A stretch of DNA of 64,000 nucleotides from Fimbriimonadales bacterium (GCA_026129745.1 JAHCHL010000007.1:1-64000); one strand, 5' to 3'; positions 57,929-62,035 are shown, counted from the first letter of the stretch. Translations and numbers: made by a program. Notes: a model not told the origin generated them from the sequence alone.

Positions 57929-57954
57929 CCGGCTGGGGCGACTGCCTCGGCCGG
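57929..57954 (+). terminator. Rho-independent terminator after the ECF sigma gene
   Basis: CCGGCTGGGGC, loop GACT, GCCTCGGCCGG form an 11-bp stem with two G-U pairs, followed by CTTGCTTTTGC. The stem starts 35 bp after the stop codon. Confidence 0.8.
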
Positions 57955-58035
57955 CTTGCTTTTGCAGCTATGCTCAAGTTACGGTAATCTTCCCGAAGCG
58001 TTGGTAGACATCCAAGCCGGGTGGAGAATTACAGC

Positions 58036-58677
58036 ATGACTCTATCGAATCAAGCCAAAAACCTTGTCACTAATCTATCGAACGGAAACGTTCTGATGGG
58101 CGACATCCGAAAGCATGCGGGCGCCATCAAGAAAGACCACGAGCTCGCCATGGAACTTTGGTCGGCCGGCCAGTACTTTCCACGCCTCCTCGCAACACTC
58201 ATCTTCGACAACAAACTCATCACGGAAGATGTGGTCGACCAACTGTTGTCGGACATGATGCAGCACGACTCGCAAGAACGCAATCAGATTGCGGACTGGT
58301 TCATGGCAAACCAACTCATAAAAAATAAAAACCTGGCTGCGCTGATGACGACATGGGAGAAAGCGGAGAATCCGATCAAGCGACGCTTGTTCTGGTACCA
58401 CCAAGCGCGATTGCGATGGACAGGCAAAACTCCCCCCGGCAACACGGATGCGCTGATGGAATCTCTCGAAAAGAACATGGCGACCGAAGACCCGGACGTG
58501 CAATGGACGATGAACTTTTGCGCAGGCTGGATCGGCATTCATGAGCCGAAGTACCGATCGAGATGCATCGAACTCGGGGAGAAGTTGGGACTCTATAAAG
58601 ACGAACGCGTCCCCAAAAACTGCACGCCATCCTACCTGCCAGAATTCATCCGAATCGAAGTTGCGAAGAGGGCGTGA
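58036..58677 (+). CDS. DNA alkylation repair protein (AlkD-like)
   Basis: A 213-residue HEAT-repeat-like protein of the DNA alkylation repair family, which removes 3-methyl- and 7-methylpurines. Typical stretches: 'LAMELWSAGQYFPRLLATLI', 'DWFMANQLIKNKNLAALMTT', 'LFWYHQARLRWTG', 'WTMNFCAGWIGIHEPKYRSR', 'LGEKLGLYKDERVPKNCTPS'. The ATG at 58036 is preferred because a GGTGGAG site lies 11 bases upstream; a GTG five codons earlier is in frame. It is just outside the A/T-rich insertion. Confidence 0.88.
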   Translation: MTLSNQAKNLVTNLSNGNVLMGDIRKHAGAIKKDHELAMELWSAGQYFPRLLATLIFDNKLITEDVVDQLLSDMMQHDSQERNQIADWFMANQLIKNKNLAALMTTWEKAENPIKRRLFWYHQARLRWTGKTPPGNTDALMESLEKNMATEDPDVQWTMNFCAGWIGIHEPKYRSRCIELGEKLGLYKDERVPKNCTPSYLPEFIRIEVAKRA

Positions 58678-58871
58678 TCTGTTGCAGGAGAACCGCTTAG
58701 CATCACGGCAATTAGATTGGAACCCGGGATATTCGTGCACCTGCAGGTCCTCGTATGTACAGGCGGTCGTGAAGCATTTCGGGTACTAGCCCACATCATA
58801 AAGGGGGTTAGACGCCCATAGCCAACGGAACATTCCGGGAAAAGACAAAAATTCCCATCTGTGCGGTGTGC

Positions 58872-58899
58872 TTGCACTGGCTTAGAGACATGACATAAT
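58872..58899 (+). promoter_or_regulatory. Promoter of the GHKL ATPase module
   Basis: TTGCAC (58872-58877), a 16-base spacer and CATAAT (58894-58899) form a sigma-70-type promoter about 55 bp before the ATG. An AGGGGG ribosome site follows at 58942-58947. The module thus has its own promoter. The 58678-58953 gap holds nothing else recognised. Confidence 0.65.
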
Positions 58900-58953
58900 A
58901 TGCGAATAGCCGGGCAACCGGTTTAGCGAATTTTTTGTAATAGGGGGAAACAC

Positions 58954-60903
58954 ATGCCCGATTGGGAGGAAATGCCGGTTGACATTGCGCGCTTCATCGC
59001 GCAGCAGTCGGCACAAACGATAAAGTGCCCTTTGGATGCCATCGTAGAGCTTGTTACGAATTCGGATGATGAATTCAGGAGATCGGGACGGGAAGGAGGA
59101 GAAATTGTATTGCACTACGTTCGCGATGGAGACGGAAACTGTCGCGAGATACGTGTTCTCGATAACGCTGGAGGGATGACTCGGGACCAATTGGATGTCG
59201 CAACAACTTTTGGGCGTGAGTCAAGCCATTTTAAGACTACCAAGGGCGTTCGCGGTTTCTTTGGTAGAGGGCTTAAGGAAGCGCTTATAGCATTGGGCGA
59301 AGGAGATATCATAACCCGAAAACACGATCAGGTCTTGCGAACCTCGATAAAACAAGATAGCCAGGACATTGCTCCAAAAAGATTGGTCCCGGAGGAGGTT
59401 AGTCTCAACGAAGCCGCGAGTTTAGGATTAACCTTCGATGGCACACTTGTCGTCATTAGAACCCTTGATCGCGCTGGTGCGAAGCGAATTGTGCCAGAAC
59501 CTGACAAGTTCCTGAACCTAACTGCAAATCATTACGCGCTCAGAGACATTTGGGAACGACGTACAGGCAGACTGACTTACAAATCAGAAAGACGAACGGG
59601 ACGCGACAGGAAGACATTAACTGTTATCAAGTCAAATCAACCCGTAGCTATTCGGCCGGAAAAGCCTCTAATGGAAAAGTGTGCTGAAGAAAGGATTCAT
59701 CTTCAAGCAAGCAAATTCATTGATATCGCAATTTACGAATCCAAGAATCAGTTAACAGGTAAGGGCGACGAACCCGACTCTTATGCAGGAATAGTAATCA
59801 AGAGTGAAGGTGTTCCGCTTGAGAAGCGAGCTTTCTTGGAAGCCAGACCAGGCTCTTGTTACTTCTCCGGAATTGTAGAAGCTCCATTTATCGCTAAAAA
59901 CCTTCGCAACGATGACAGTTCCATGCTGCAGGCGAACAGGAGCGGTTTGGATTGGCGTACAACATCCTGCAGAGAACTAGCTGTCACGATAGAGAAAACG
60001 CTTGCACCGTTGATTACTGAAAAGGAGGCGCAACTTGCTGGCTCGAAGATTGATAGGGACCCCGACCGAACCAGCAAGTTGAAGAGAGACGCGGAGTTTT
60101 TGAATAGGCTTGCGAAACAACTTGGAGCGCAGCTACAGCCAGGACTTGAGGGCGGTACAGATCTCGAACCAGTTCCGCTCGCCGATCTTGCTATCCGACC
60201 TCTCTTCTGCAACATGCCACCAGGTGCTCAAAGAAAATTTAAGATCTATTGTCCAATCTCCAACCTTCCCAGCAATACCAAGATCGAACAAGGATTTGTA
60301 GTACTGACCGGGGTTGATGGAGAGGCTTCTGCACACTTGCCAAGTGTTGATGATGAAGTTACGCTAACCCGCGATCCTGTAAGAAGAGACATTTTGAGTG
60401 GAAATGTTACTGTCGTTGTTCCGAATGAAGCCCAATTGGGGTCCTATTGGATTTTATCTGCAGTTTCCGAGAGTTCGCGAGCCGTCGCAGAAATAGTTTG
60501 CGCAGAGCCAGGTAAATCCAATAGAAATAAGGATCCAGGCTCCCCTCGCGGCGGCATTTTCGAACGGATTGAACCGGACTTATCGCCTGATCCGACTCAA
60601 AGGGTTTGGTATGACCCTGGGACAAGGGTCCTCCGAATCTATGTTGAATTCCCGACATTGAAGCGAACGCTTGGCTACCCTGACGCTTGGCTTACGAGCG
60701 AAGCAGCGAAAACGCTATATGTCGAACTTCTTGCTGAGGGATTGTGCCGGACAGTTGTTTTACGAGATATTGAGAGAGGAGCGTTGGAGTATGGCGACAC
60801 CCCTGAGGCAGCCGCAGCAAGTTCATTTGCTCACATAGACAAACTACGCCGAAAGTGCGTTAAAGAAATTTATGACTACGTCACACGACAGTATGGAACG
60901 TAA
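58954..60903 (+). CDS. GHKL ATPase (MORC/MutL/Hsp90-like) of a putative two-gene module
   Basis: A 649-residue cytoplasmic protein with an N-terminal GHKL ATPase domain. The N-box has Glu32, Asn36 and Asp39 ('AIVELVTNSDDEF'), motif G1 is Asp70 in 'VLDNAGGMT', and the lid/G2 is 'KGVRGFFGRGLKEALIALGE' (98-106 Gly pattern). About 225-400 looks like the S5-type transducer seen in GHKL enzymes ('SSMLQANRSGLDWR'), 425-515 is beta-rich, and 550-649 is a C-terminal domain with 'RVWYDPGTRVLRIYVEFPTL' and a helical end. This order resembles prokaryotic MORC-like ATPases found in defence or modification islands. Codon use is more A/T-rich than neighbours. Function unknown. Confidence 0.72.
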   Translation: MPDWEEMPVDIARFIAQQSAQTIKCPLDAIVELVTNSDDEFRRSGREGGEIVLHYVRDGDGNCREIRVLDNAGGMTRDQLDVATTFGRESSHFKTTKGVRGFFGRGLKEALIALGEGDIITRKHDQVLRTSIKQDSQDIAPKRLVPEEVSLNEAASLGLTFDGTLVVIRTLDRAGAKRIVPEPDKFLNLTANHYALRDIWERRTGRLTYKSERRTGRDRKTLTVIKSNQPVAIRPEKPLMEKCAEERIHLQASKFIDIAIYESKNQLTGKGDEPDSYAGIVIKSEGVPLEKRAFLEARPGSCYFSGIVEAPFIAKNLRNDDSSMLQANRSGLDWRTTSCRELAVTIEKTLAPLITEKEAQLAGSKIDRDPDRTSKLKRDAEFLNRLAKQLGAQLQPGLEGGTDLEPVPLADLAIRPLFCNMPPGAQRKFKIYCPISNLPSNTKIEQGFVVLTGVDGEASAHLPSVDDEVTLTRDPVRRDILSGNVTVVVPNEAQLGSYWILSAVSESSRAVAEIVCAEPGKSNRNKDPGSPRGGIFERIEPDLSPDPTQRVWYDPGTRVLRIYVEFPTLKRTLGYPDAWLTSEAAKTLYVELLAEGLCRTVVLRDIERGALEYGDTPEAAAASSFAHIDKLRRKCVKEIYDYVTRQYGT

Positions 60904-61507
60904 AGAACTGATAAGACTATCATTGGATGAGCTCGTCATGATTTGTGCAAGTGAGCTGGTCGCTAGCAGCACAAAGTTCGCCTTTGAGGATCTTGTTGCA
61001 ACTTGCTTCAACCGGTTTCCAGAAAAGTTCGGACTACCAAGTTATCCACAATGGCCGGATTCTGCACGTGTGAACAAGTGCTGGCTTCGTTGCAGGTCCG
61101 ACCGAGGTTGGCTGCGAGGAAGTTCGAAATCAGGATTCCAGCTGACTGCAGCAGGTAAGGAGGCGGCTGAATGTGCGAAGGCCAAACTTGCGGGCGAATT
61201 AGTGCCTACCAAGACCAAGTTTAGTACAACTATAAGTGACGCTTGTGAAAAGAACTTAGCCAACATCAGAGACTCTATCGGTTTTCGACGCTACCAGAGC
61301 GGCGATAGAGCCATTGAGCGAGAGCAACTAATGGCAAGTGTGGCAGGAGGTATGGATATGCCGCGCCGCCTTGCCAGGTCCGCTCTAAGATCAGCTCAAA
61401 ACTGCGCAAAGCGGGCAGGCGACGCCGAGGTTCTACTGTTTCTGCGCTTTTGTGAAAAGACTTTGGACCTTTCACGACCATGGTCTTCCAAGACCAAATC
61501 AAAATGA
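60872..61507 (+). CDS. Winged-helix-like partner of the GHKL ATPase
   Basis: A 211-residue protein whose first 32 bp overlap the ATPase gene (11 bp if the second Met at 60893 is used), so translation is coupled. Residues 15-95 fit a winged helix: 'LDELVMICASELVASSTKFA', 'FEDLVATCFNRFPEKFGLPS', 'YPQWPDSARVNKCWLRCRSD', 'RGWLRGSSKSGFQLTAAGKE'. A second helical domain covers about 130-205 ('ALRSAQNCAKRAGDAEVLLF', 'LRFCEKTLDL'). I do not know a characterised family. It probably binds DNA or the ATPase. Confidence 0.6.
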   Translation: MTTSHDSMERKELIRLSLDELVMICASELVASSTKFAFEDLVATCFNRFPEKFGLPSYPQWPDSARVNKCWLRCRSDRGWLRGSSKSGFQLTAAGKEAAECAKAKLAGELVPTKTKFSTTISDACEKNLANIRDSIGFRRYQSGDRAIEREQLMASVAGGMDMPRRLARSALRSAQNCAKRAGDAEVLLFLRFCEKTLDLSRPWSSKTKSK

Positions 61508-62035
61508 CAAACCAATTACTCGCAACTCGTTTCCATGCCCTATACGCATCGATTACTGACCTCGGGAAACAACCTGGTTTTTGACGGTGAGCCAACACGG
61601 TAATCGAAGATCATTCCGAACCGTCCATGCCCAGTTGACTTTCGCAAGTTTCGAGACCTTTAACACAGAAACCGTATGTCCCAAAGTGACCAGAAAACGC
61701 CCATTCCGACCATGCTCCCATCACCAAACCACTCTCCCAATAATGGCAGTGCTTTCGGTGACGGCGGTGACGAGTTAACAATTCAAGTTCAAATCTGGCC
61801 AATGAAAGAACAAACAAAAAAGAGTGCGGTGACGAGCACACGATCCGACCTGCGAAAGAAGCCAATGCATCCGAAAACGATCGTCAACCAGAGAAACACT
61901 CGGAAACCAAAAAACGGCGAAAACAGCGGTGATGGCGGTGACGCCGGTGACGCGAGGACATTGGCCACCCGGACCGCCAGTGCGACCCCCTCGGCTATAA
62001 TTCCATAAAGCAAACACAACGAACAGGAGCCAGCC
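61508..62035. repeat. Non-coding stretch with clustered GGTGACG repeats
   Basis: 528 bp with no convincing gene; short open frames on both strands lack ribosome sites and family motifs. A 9-base unit GGTGACG(G/A/C)(C/G) occurs at 61757-61774 (two copies), 61828-61836 (one) and 61928-61954 (three, one with a T), spaced about 60-90 bp. A weak inverted repeat CGATTAC / GTAATCG is at 61550-61606. TATAAT at 61996-62001 may be the -10 box of hpd. The stretch bounds the A/T-rich insertion and could hold a vanished gene or regulatory array. Confidence 0.5.

Follow-up and report, generated by a model that had tools for sequence, protein, structure and literature searches.

Two overlapping genes on one strand of the window (the whole 64,000-nucleotide stretch of Fimbriimonadales DNA analysed) encode a 649-residue GHKL ATPase and a 211-residue partner, and the two are deduced to form one real, conserved two-protein system. 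This deduction is strongly supported by the adjacency of the two genes in 36 loci and by the co-divergence of their products. Lateral acquisition of the segment that carries them is strongly supported as well, by empty sites in three same-family genomes and by absence from 100 relatives. The system is apparently undescribed and probably recognizes or controls foreign DNA. Our preferred reading, to which we assign a probability of roughly 0.5, is that the pair is a horizontally mobile, ATP-gated DNA clamp that is steered by a DNA-binding partner and used against foreign DNA.

The features of the locus are listed in the table. The first-pass annotation had described an A/T-rich segment holding a GHKL ATPase gene overlapped by a partner gene, with an AlkD-like gene upstream and tyrosine catabolism downstream. 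The open reading frames, the overlap, the AlkD-like gene, the HPPD gene downstream and the AGGGGG site were all found as described; the promoter that had also been claimed was not borne out, as a consensus promoter scan gave no sigma-70-like site before the ATPase gene. The GC content of the pair is 0.491 versus a contig mean of 0.544, lower than in all 2663 stretches of the same size outside the insert, and the two genes together take the lowest and second-lowest GC3 values among the 82 genes of the 142-kb contig. By its composition the segment is foreign. Scans of the 64-kb window with Rfam and for tRNA genes were empty. Short repeats of the CGGTGACGG type were seen at 61756-61952, in the non-coding tail that follows the partner gene and precedes the HPPD gene.

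Table. Features of the locus, with positions counted from the first nucleotide of the window
Feature	Position	Strand	Evidence or remark
Laterally acquired segment, flanked by the ECF sigma-factor gene (to 57893) and the HPPD gene (from 62036)	57965..62000		boundaries +/- ~50 bp
Terminator-like hairpin after the sigma gene	57929..57954	+	similar hairpin after the sigma gene in G001
AlkD-like HEAT-repeat gene, inside the same insert	58021..58677	+	PF08713, 1.9e-6
AGGGGG, possible ribosome-binding site	58942..58947	+	sequence reading
MORC-like GHKL-S5 ATPase gene	58954..60903	+	ORF, Pfam, AlphaFold2, Foldseek, alignment
N-box, residues 32-39 (E32, N36, D39)	59047..59070	+	invariant in 33/33
DNAGGM motif, residues 70-75	59161..59178	+	D70, G74 invariant in 33/33
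ATP-lid glycine motif GVRGFFGRG, residues 98-106	59245..59271	+	G101, G106 invariant; G104 in 31/33
R329, end of the S5-like domain	59938..59940	+	invariant in 33/33
Predicted beta-sandwich, Ig-like by strand order, residues 413-516	60190..60501	+	DSSP on model; alignment
Predicted C-terminal domain of two long helices, residues 538-647	60565..60894	+	DSSP on model
32-nt overlap between the ATPase and partner genes	60872..60903	+	ORF coordinates
Partner gene, 211 aa	60872..61507	+	ORF, profile search, AlphaFold2, alignment
Predicted winged-helix domain of partner, residues 18-106	60923..61189	+	AlphaFold2, alignment
Predicted C-terminal helical domain of partner, residues 123-197	61238..61462	+	AlphaFold2

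The pairing of the two genes was established from homologous loci. One full-length homologue of the ATPase, in genome G207 (30% identity, 5e-70), is adjoined by a homologue of the partner (29% identity, 4e-25). Single-sequence scans of the genome and viral collections found nothing; an alignment of the window and G207 ATPases was needed, and with it 80 loci were recovered, among which partner genes were found with a profile grown from the window's partner. A partner gene lies next to the ATPase gene in 36 non-redundant loci, on the same strand in all of them and overlapping or within ~40 nt in nearly all (in one, L062, the ATPase is split into two ORFs). The named phyla represented among these loci number at least 18, including three archaeal ones. 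Since they were retrieved via the ATPase, the partner was also sought independently, and this less biased test, covering 291 genomes of the phylum, gave four partner homologues, all of them adjoining an ATPase gene. The distances between ATPases correlate with those between partners (Mantel r 0.89, with a maximum of 0.25 over 5000 permutations). The partner usually comes first; it is second in the window and at L031, an archaeal locus, and as the order is swapped there and the pairing is kept, the linkage has survived a change of order. The proposal of a two-gene module was upheld by these data, and the partner is linked to the ATPase in other genomes. Solitary GHKL ATPases of ~630 aa make up a sister clade that has no partner and few defence neighbours (L037-L096, e.g. 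L039:9926-11827) and occurs in Marinobacter, Arthrobacter, Sulfurovum, Peptococcaceae and others.

The foreign origin of the segment, as first proposed, held, but the segment proved larger than the stretch first delimited. The gap between the sigma-factor and HPPD genes is 4142 bp in the window versus ~100-143 bp in three same-family genomes (G001, G002 and G003), and on the basis of this comparison the AlkD-like gene, missing from all seven same-family genomes, was counted in the insert, giving an extent of about 57.96-62.0 kb. The hairpin after the sigma gene was taken to lie beyond the insert or at its margin, because a similar one follows the sigma gene of G001. The exact ends could not be placed, the relatives being too diverged. 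No homologue of the ATPase was found among 100 relatives; matches were obtained in 6 of 291 genomes of the phylum, with the partner present in 4 of those 6. The ATPase tree distributes the same-phylum members (the window, G207, G201 and G246) and a Nitrospirota-labelled record (L032) over different clades; the branch of the window is long and its exact placement unsure. The empty sites and the absence from relatives thus favour acquisition over vertical inheritance with housekeeping neighbours, in agreement with the GC3 extremes. The two 600-bp flanks of the window pair share no repeat of 10 nt or more that would mark a target-site duplication, and the insert has no recombinase gene.

A hint of movement of the pair elsewhere comes from G207, where it sits inside a DNA methyltransferase-HNH gene (L008:8694-12568, on contig G207:C7). 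The two halves of the split methyltransferase align to residues 229-270 and 274-451 of one uninterrupted homologue, and a 13-bp direct repeat (CATATAGATTGTT) is present at both junctions. The gene interruption together with the repeat suggests that the pair can move as a unit. A second candidate for a split methyltransferase, at L027, was dropped because its pieces seem to be two different enzymes. G207 also holds ~20 copies of a dispersed ~40-bp repeat, frequently close to the end of a contig or upstream of a gene, which is possibly a small mobile or promoter-bearing repeat; one copy (L008:8954-8993) marks the left end of the inserted pair and a 16-bp remnant the right end. The pair family was not found in the plasmid and phage collections by tblastn with three queries, and one IMG/VR contig carries the pair. 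Such absence is unusual for a mobile defence system and is a mild argument against a typical one, even if uncultured lineages supply most of the members.

The ATPase gave a Pfam match to HATPase_c_3 (1.1e-6) above the cut-off, that to HATPase_c being below its own. The GHKL motifs claimed from the first reading (N-box, DNAGGM and lid) are intact, the lid fitting GxxGxxGxG, and E32, N36, D39, D70, G74, G101, G106 and R329 are invariant in all 33 pair-linked homologues. These features place the protein in the GHKL superfamily. From the invariance of the catalytic residues E32, N36, D39, D70 and R329, an active ATPase is likely, and R329 is a candidate gamma-phosphate finger. The AlphaFold2 model (pLDDT 81) consists of GHKL, S5-like, helical, beta-sandwich and C-terminal helical parts, named from the order of strands and helices in the model. 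Longer family members carry extra sequence at the beta-sandwich region in the alignment, and the C-terminal two-helix domain is a putative dimerization region. The check for a MORC, MutL or Hsp90 fold came out for the MORC type: the best Foldseek matches were MORC3 (4.7e-11) and SMCHD1 (6.7e-11), followed by Hsp90 proteins, over ~400 columns. The predicted order of a GHKL domain followed by an S5-fold domain is that of the MORC/paraMORC radiation; within the ATPase module the closest structural matches are eukaryotic MORC3/MORC2 and SMCHD1. Ig-like repeats are also present in SMCHD1. The pair differs from these eukaryotic proteins in its low identity (~15%), in that no CW zinc finger or hinge was found, and in having its winged helix in a separate protein.

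The window partner matched no Pfam family. Its AlphaFold2 model (pLDDT 88.7) shows a winged helix followed by a helical bundle, which is consistent with the winged-helix-like character originally suggested. The archaeal Pfam domain HVO_A0261_N, which we take to be a winged helix, matches 7 of 35 members of the partner family and weakly supports the assignment. Foldseek matches were weak (best E 0.011) and were to the winged helices of MukF, MarR and MntR. A family signature, FP..F.L..YPxWPDS, precedes the third helix of the winged helix.

None of the models in PADLOC, NCBIfam and Pfam names the pair, and a search of largely open-access literature gave no description of it; within these bounds the suggestion that the module is undescribed is supported. 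Its carriers are mostly metagenome-assembled genomes, so it may have been overlooked. PADLOC and NCBIfam gave only insignificant matches, and the sole model responding to the window protein was that of MzaB, also a GHKL ATPase, from the Mza anti-phage system. Mza is a multi-gene system, and membership in it was rejected on a score of 12.7 bits against a cut-off of 850 (E 0.056 and 0.029). MzaB-like GHKL proteins (2e-18 and 1e-17) were observed in two genomes of the same phylum, at L012:8814-10670 and L011:6199-7998.

Broadly, the ATPase is one of the MORC/paraMORC kind. Prokaryotic MORC and paraMORC1-5 ATPases have been placed by prediction in restriction-modification systems since 2008, and the DNA looping proposed for them there is, by analogy, the nearest precedent for the pair (Iyer, Abhiman, Aravind 2008, PMC2292703). 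Like those families, the pair has an N-terminal GHKL and S5-type module, is patchy and laterally mobile, and occurs near methyltransferase and restriction genes. The MORC family proper was rejected because the S5 motif GhXhhpXXRhl is present in 0 of 33 members. A further sequence pattern, used as a test of family membership, occurs in only 5 of 12 members examined and is not an aligned conserved site. Unlike paraMORC3, the pair ATPase has no nuclease extension: Pfam did not match the DUF4263 restriction-endonuclease-fold domain of paraMORC3 and type I-D Shedu in 35 members. Nor did it match a fused TIR in these 35; in paraMORC4 the TIR is fused or adjacent, and with the genes adjoining the pairs covered as a tally of the top 25 families, the separation from paraMORC4 is tentative. 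The comparison concerns paraMORC3 and paraMORC4, whereas paraMORC1 and paraMORC5 are marked by a family-specific C-terminal extension (HxH in paraMORC5). The dedicated winged-helix partner is a feature of the pair not described for MORC or paraMORC in the sections consulted (PMC2292703). A GHKL ATPase proven in phage defence, VcSduA of type I-D Shedu, is a single protein with a DUF4263 nuclease domain (PMC12137116), which was not found in the pair. Membership among the HEF_HK two-component-like elements (PMC8011034) was likewise rejected, as HEF_HK and Response_reg_2 were not matched in the Pfam scans, and these scans revealed no nuclease, TIR, HEPN, STAS or receiver domain in either protein.

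The neighbourhoods of the pair are in part consistent with a putative defence role. Homologous loci include an Hma helicase with a DUF1156-type methyltransferase (L072), a DUF1156-type methyltransferase with a probable Hma (L054), a nearby type IIG enzyme (L036), a gene for a type III modification enzyme immediately following the pair (L020) and, by motif, DGQHR/DndB-like genes (L031 and L083). Such genes accompany part of the loci and speak for the defence module originally proposed; against it stand the lack of a third conserved gene at the pair loci and the fact that no methyltransferase, restriction, Hma or DndB-like gene was seen inside the window insert. N6_N4 methyltransferases account for 7 of 135 flanking proteins, and the methyltransferase family occurs at 10 of 36 loci, most loci having no methyltransferase within 7 kb. 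Matches to PADLOC families numbered 203 in the flanks of the pairs versus 36 in those of the partnerless sister clade, which gives a direction rather than a measured enrichment: redundancy of the models makes the counts non-independent, and the control set differs in phylogeny. A leave-one-out methyltransferase count gave 9/35 versus 0/49, a comparison biased by queries drawn from pair loci, for which the PADLOC control is the fairer, also imperfect, counterpart.

The module itself is an observation; its defence role and mechanism we infer as follows. The ATPase would dimerize via its C-terminal helices, and ATP binding would close its heads into a clamp around DNA. C-terminal dimerization and ATP-driven head closure are known for MutL, Hsp90 and MORC proteins. 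The winged helix of the partner would bind DNA or a DNA-bound feature while its helical domain would load or position the clamp. The target, foreign or wrongly marked DNA, would be trapped, looped or silenced, or else passed to a nuclease of the host or to a restriction system nearby, the hand-over being proposed because neither protein has a recognizable nuclease domain. As a tentative extension, possible though doubtful, the pair may be a widespread, as yet unnamed immune module of bacteria and archaea in which a MORC/SMCHD1-like clamp silences or compacts invading DNA without a nuclease, as a prokaryotic counterpart of eukaryotic MORC silencing. The pair bears on how eukaryotic silencing ATPases originated from prokaryotic MORC-type ATPases. 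As a minimal, two-gene version kept across many phyla, it is well suited to finding out whether a MORC-like clamp suffices to block foreign DNA. If correct, the preferred reading adds a type of defence missed by current tools because most carriers are uncultured.

The methyltransferase, type IIG, type III and Hma neighbours, and the MTase-HNH gene surrounding the pair in G207, could instead point to accessory subunits of restriction-modification, in which the ATPase would loop DNA between recognition and cleavage sites, the partner would give specificity, and nuclease and methyltransferase would come from whatever system is at hand. This is unlikely, as the neighbouring systems vary by locus and are missing from most, the window genome has its only two N6_N4 methyltransferase genes on other contigs, and the pair in G207 disrupts the methyltransferase gene instead of completing an operon. 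On mechanism, the main alternative is regulation in the manner of CapK/CapS, a GHKL and winged-helix pair found beside immune operons (PMC13373217), with a GHKL kinase or switch releasing a winged-helix repressor from nearby immune promoters. The weak resemblance of the partner to MarR/MntR-type regulators and its first position in most operons would fit. A STAS domain is present both in CapK, an HTH-STAS-GHKL kinase, and in CapS (PMC13373217); the pair has an N-terminal GHKL and no STAS or HEF_HK domain in the Pfam scans, so that membership was rejected. No conserved downstream target operon was seen, and the N-box E-N-D pattern, the S5-like domain and the invariant R329 were deemed to fit ATPases of the gyrase/MutL/Hsp90 type. 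Such a combination is the pattern of these ATPases and not of kinases, and the regulatory reading is considered quite unlikely.

The AlkD-like gene in the same insert raises the idea of a MutL-like surveillance pair acquired with a glycosylase gene as an accessory to DNA repair. This was judged improbable since no AlkD-like gene clusters among the neighbours of the other 35 loci, and the patchy distribution is unlike that of repair genes. A functional link of the pair to AlkD was rejected on the same ground, AlkD not being a conserved neighbour. Least credible of all is a selfish or toxin-antitoxin-like element that serves chiefly to maintain itself. The two overlapping genes are mobile, have inserted in G207 into a gene with a target-site-like repeat, and have PIN-domain toxin-like genes next to three members; neither protein has a toxin-like domain, the insert lacks a recombinase gene and the PIN genes are not conserved neighbours.

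Two sets of genes adjoining individual pairs were recorded. The PIN-domain genes lie directly upstream of the pair at L068:8866-9282, L028:3354-3752 and L029:1464-1862. In two distant loci, a common gene of ~340 aa lies directly upstream of the partner (L045:360-1376 and L009:989-2050) and is possibly an occasional third component.
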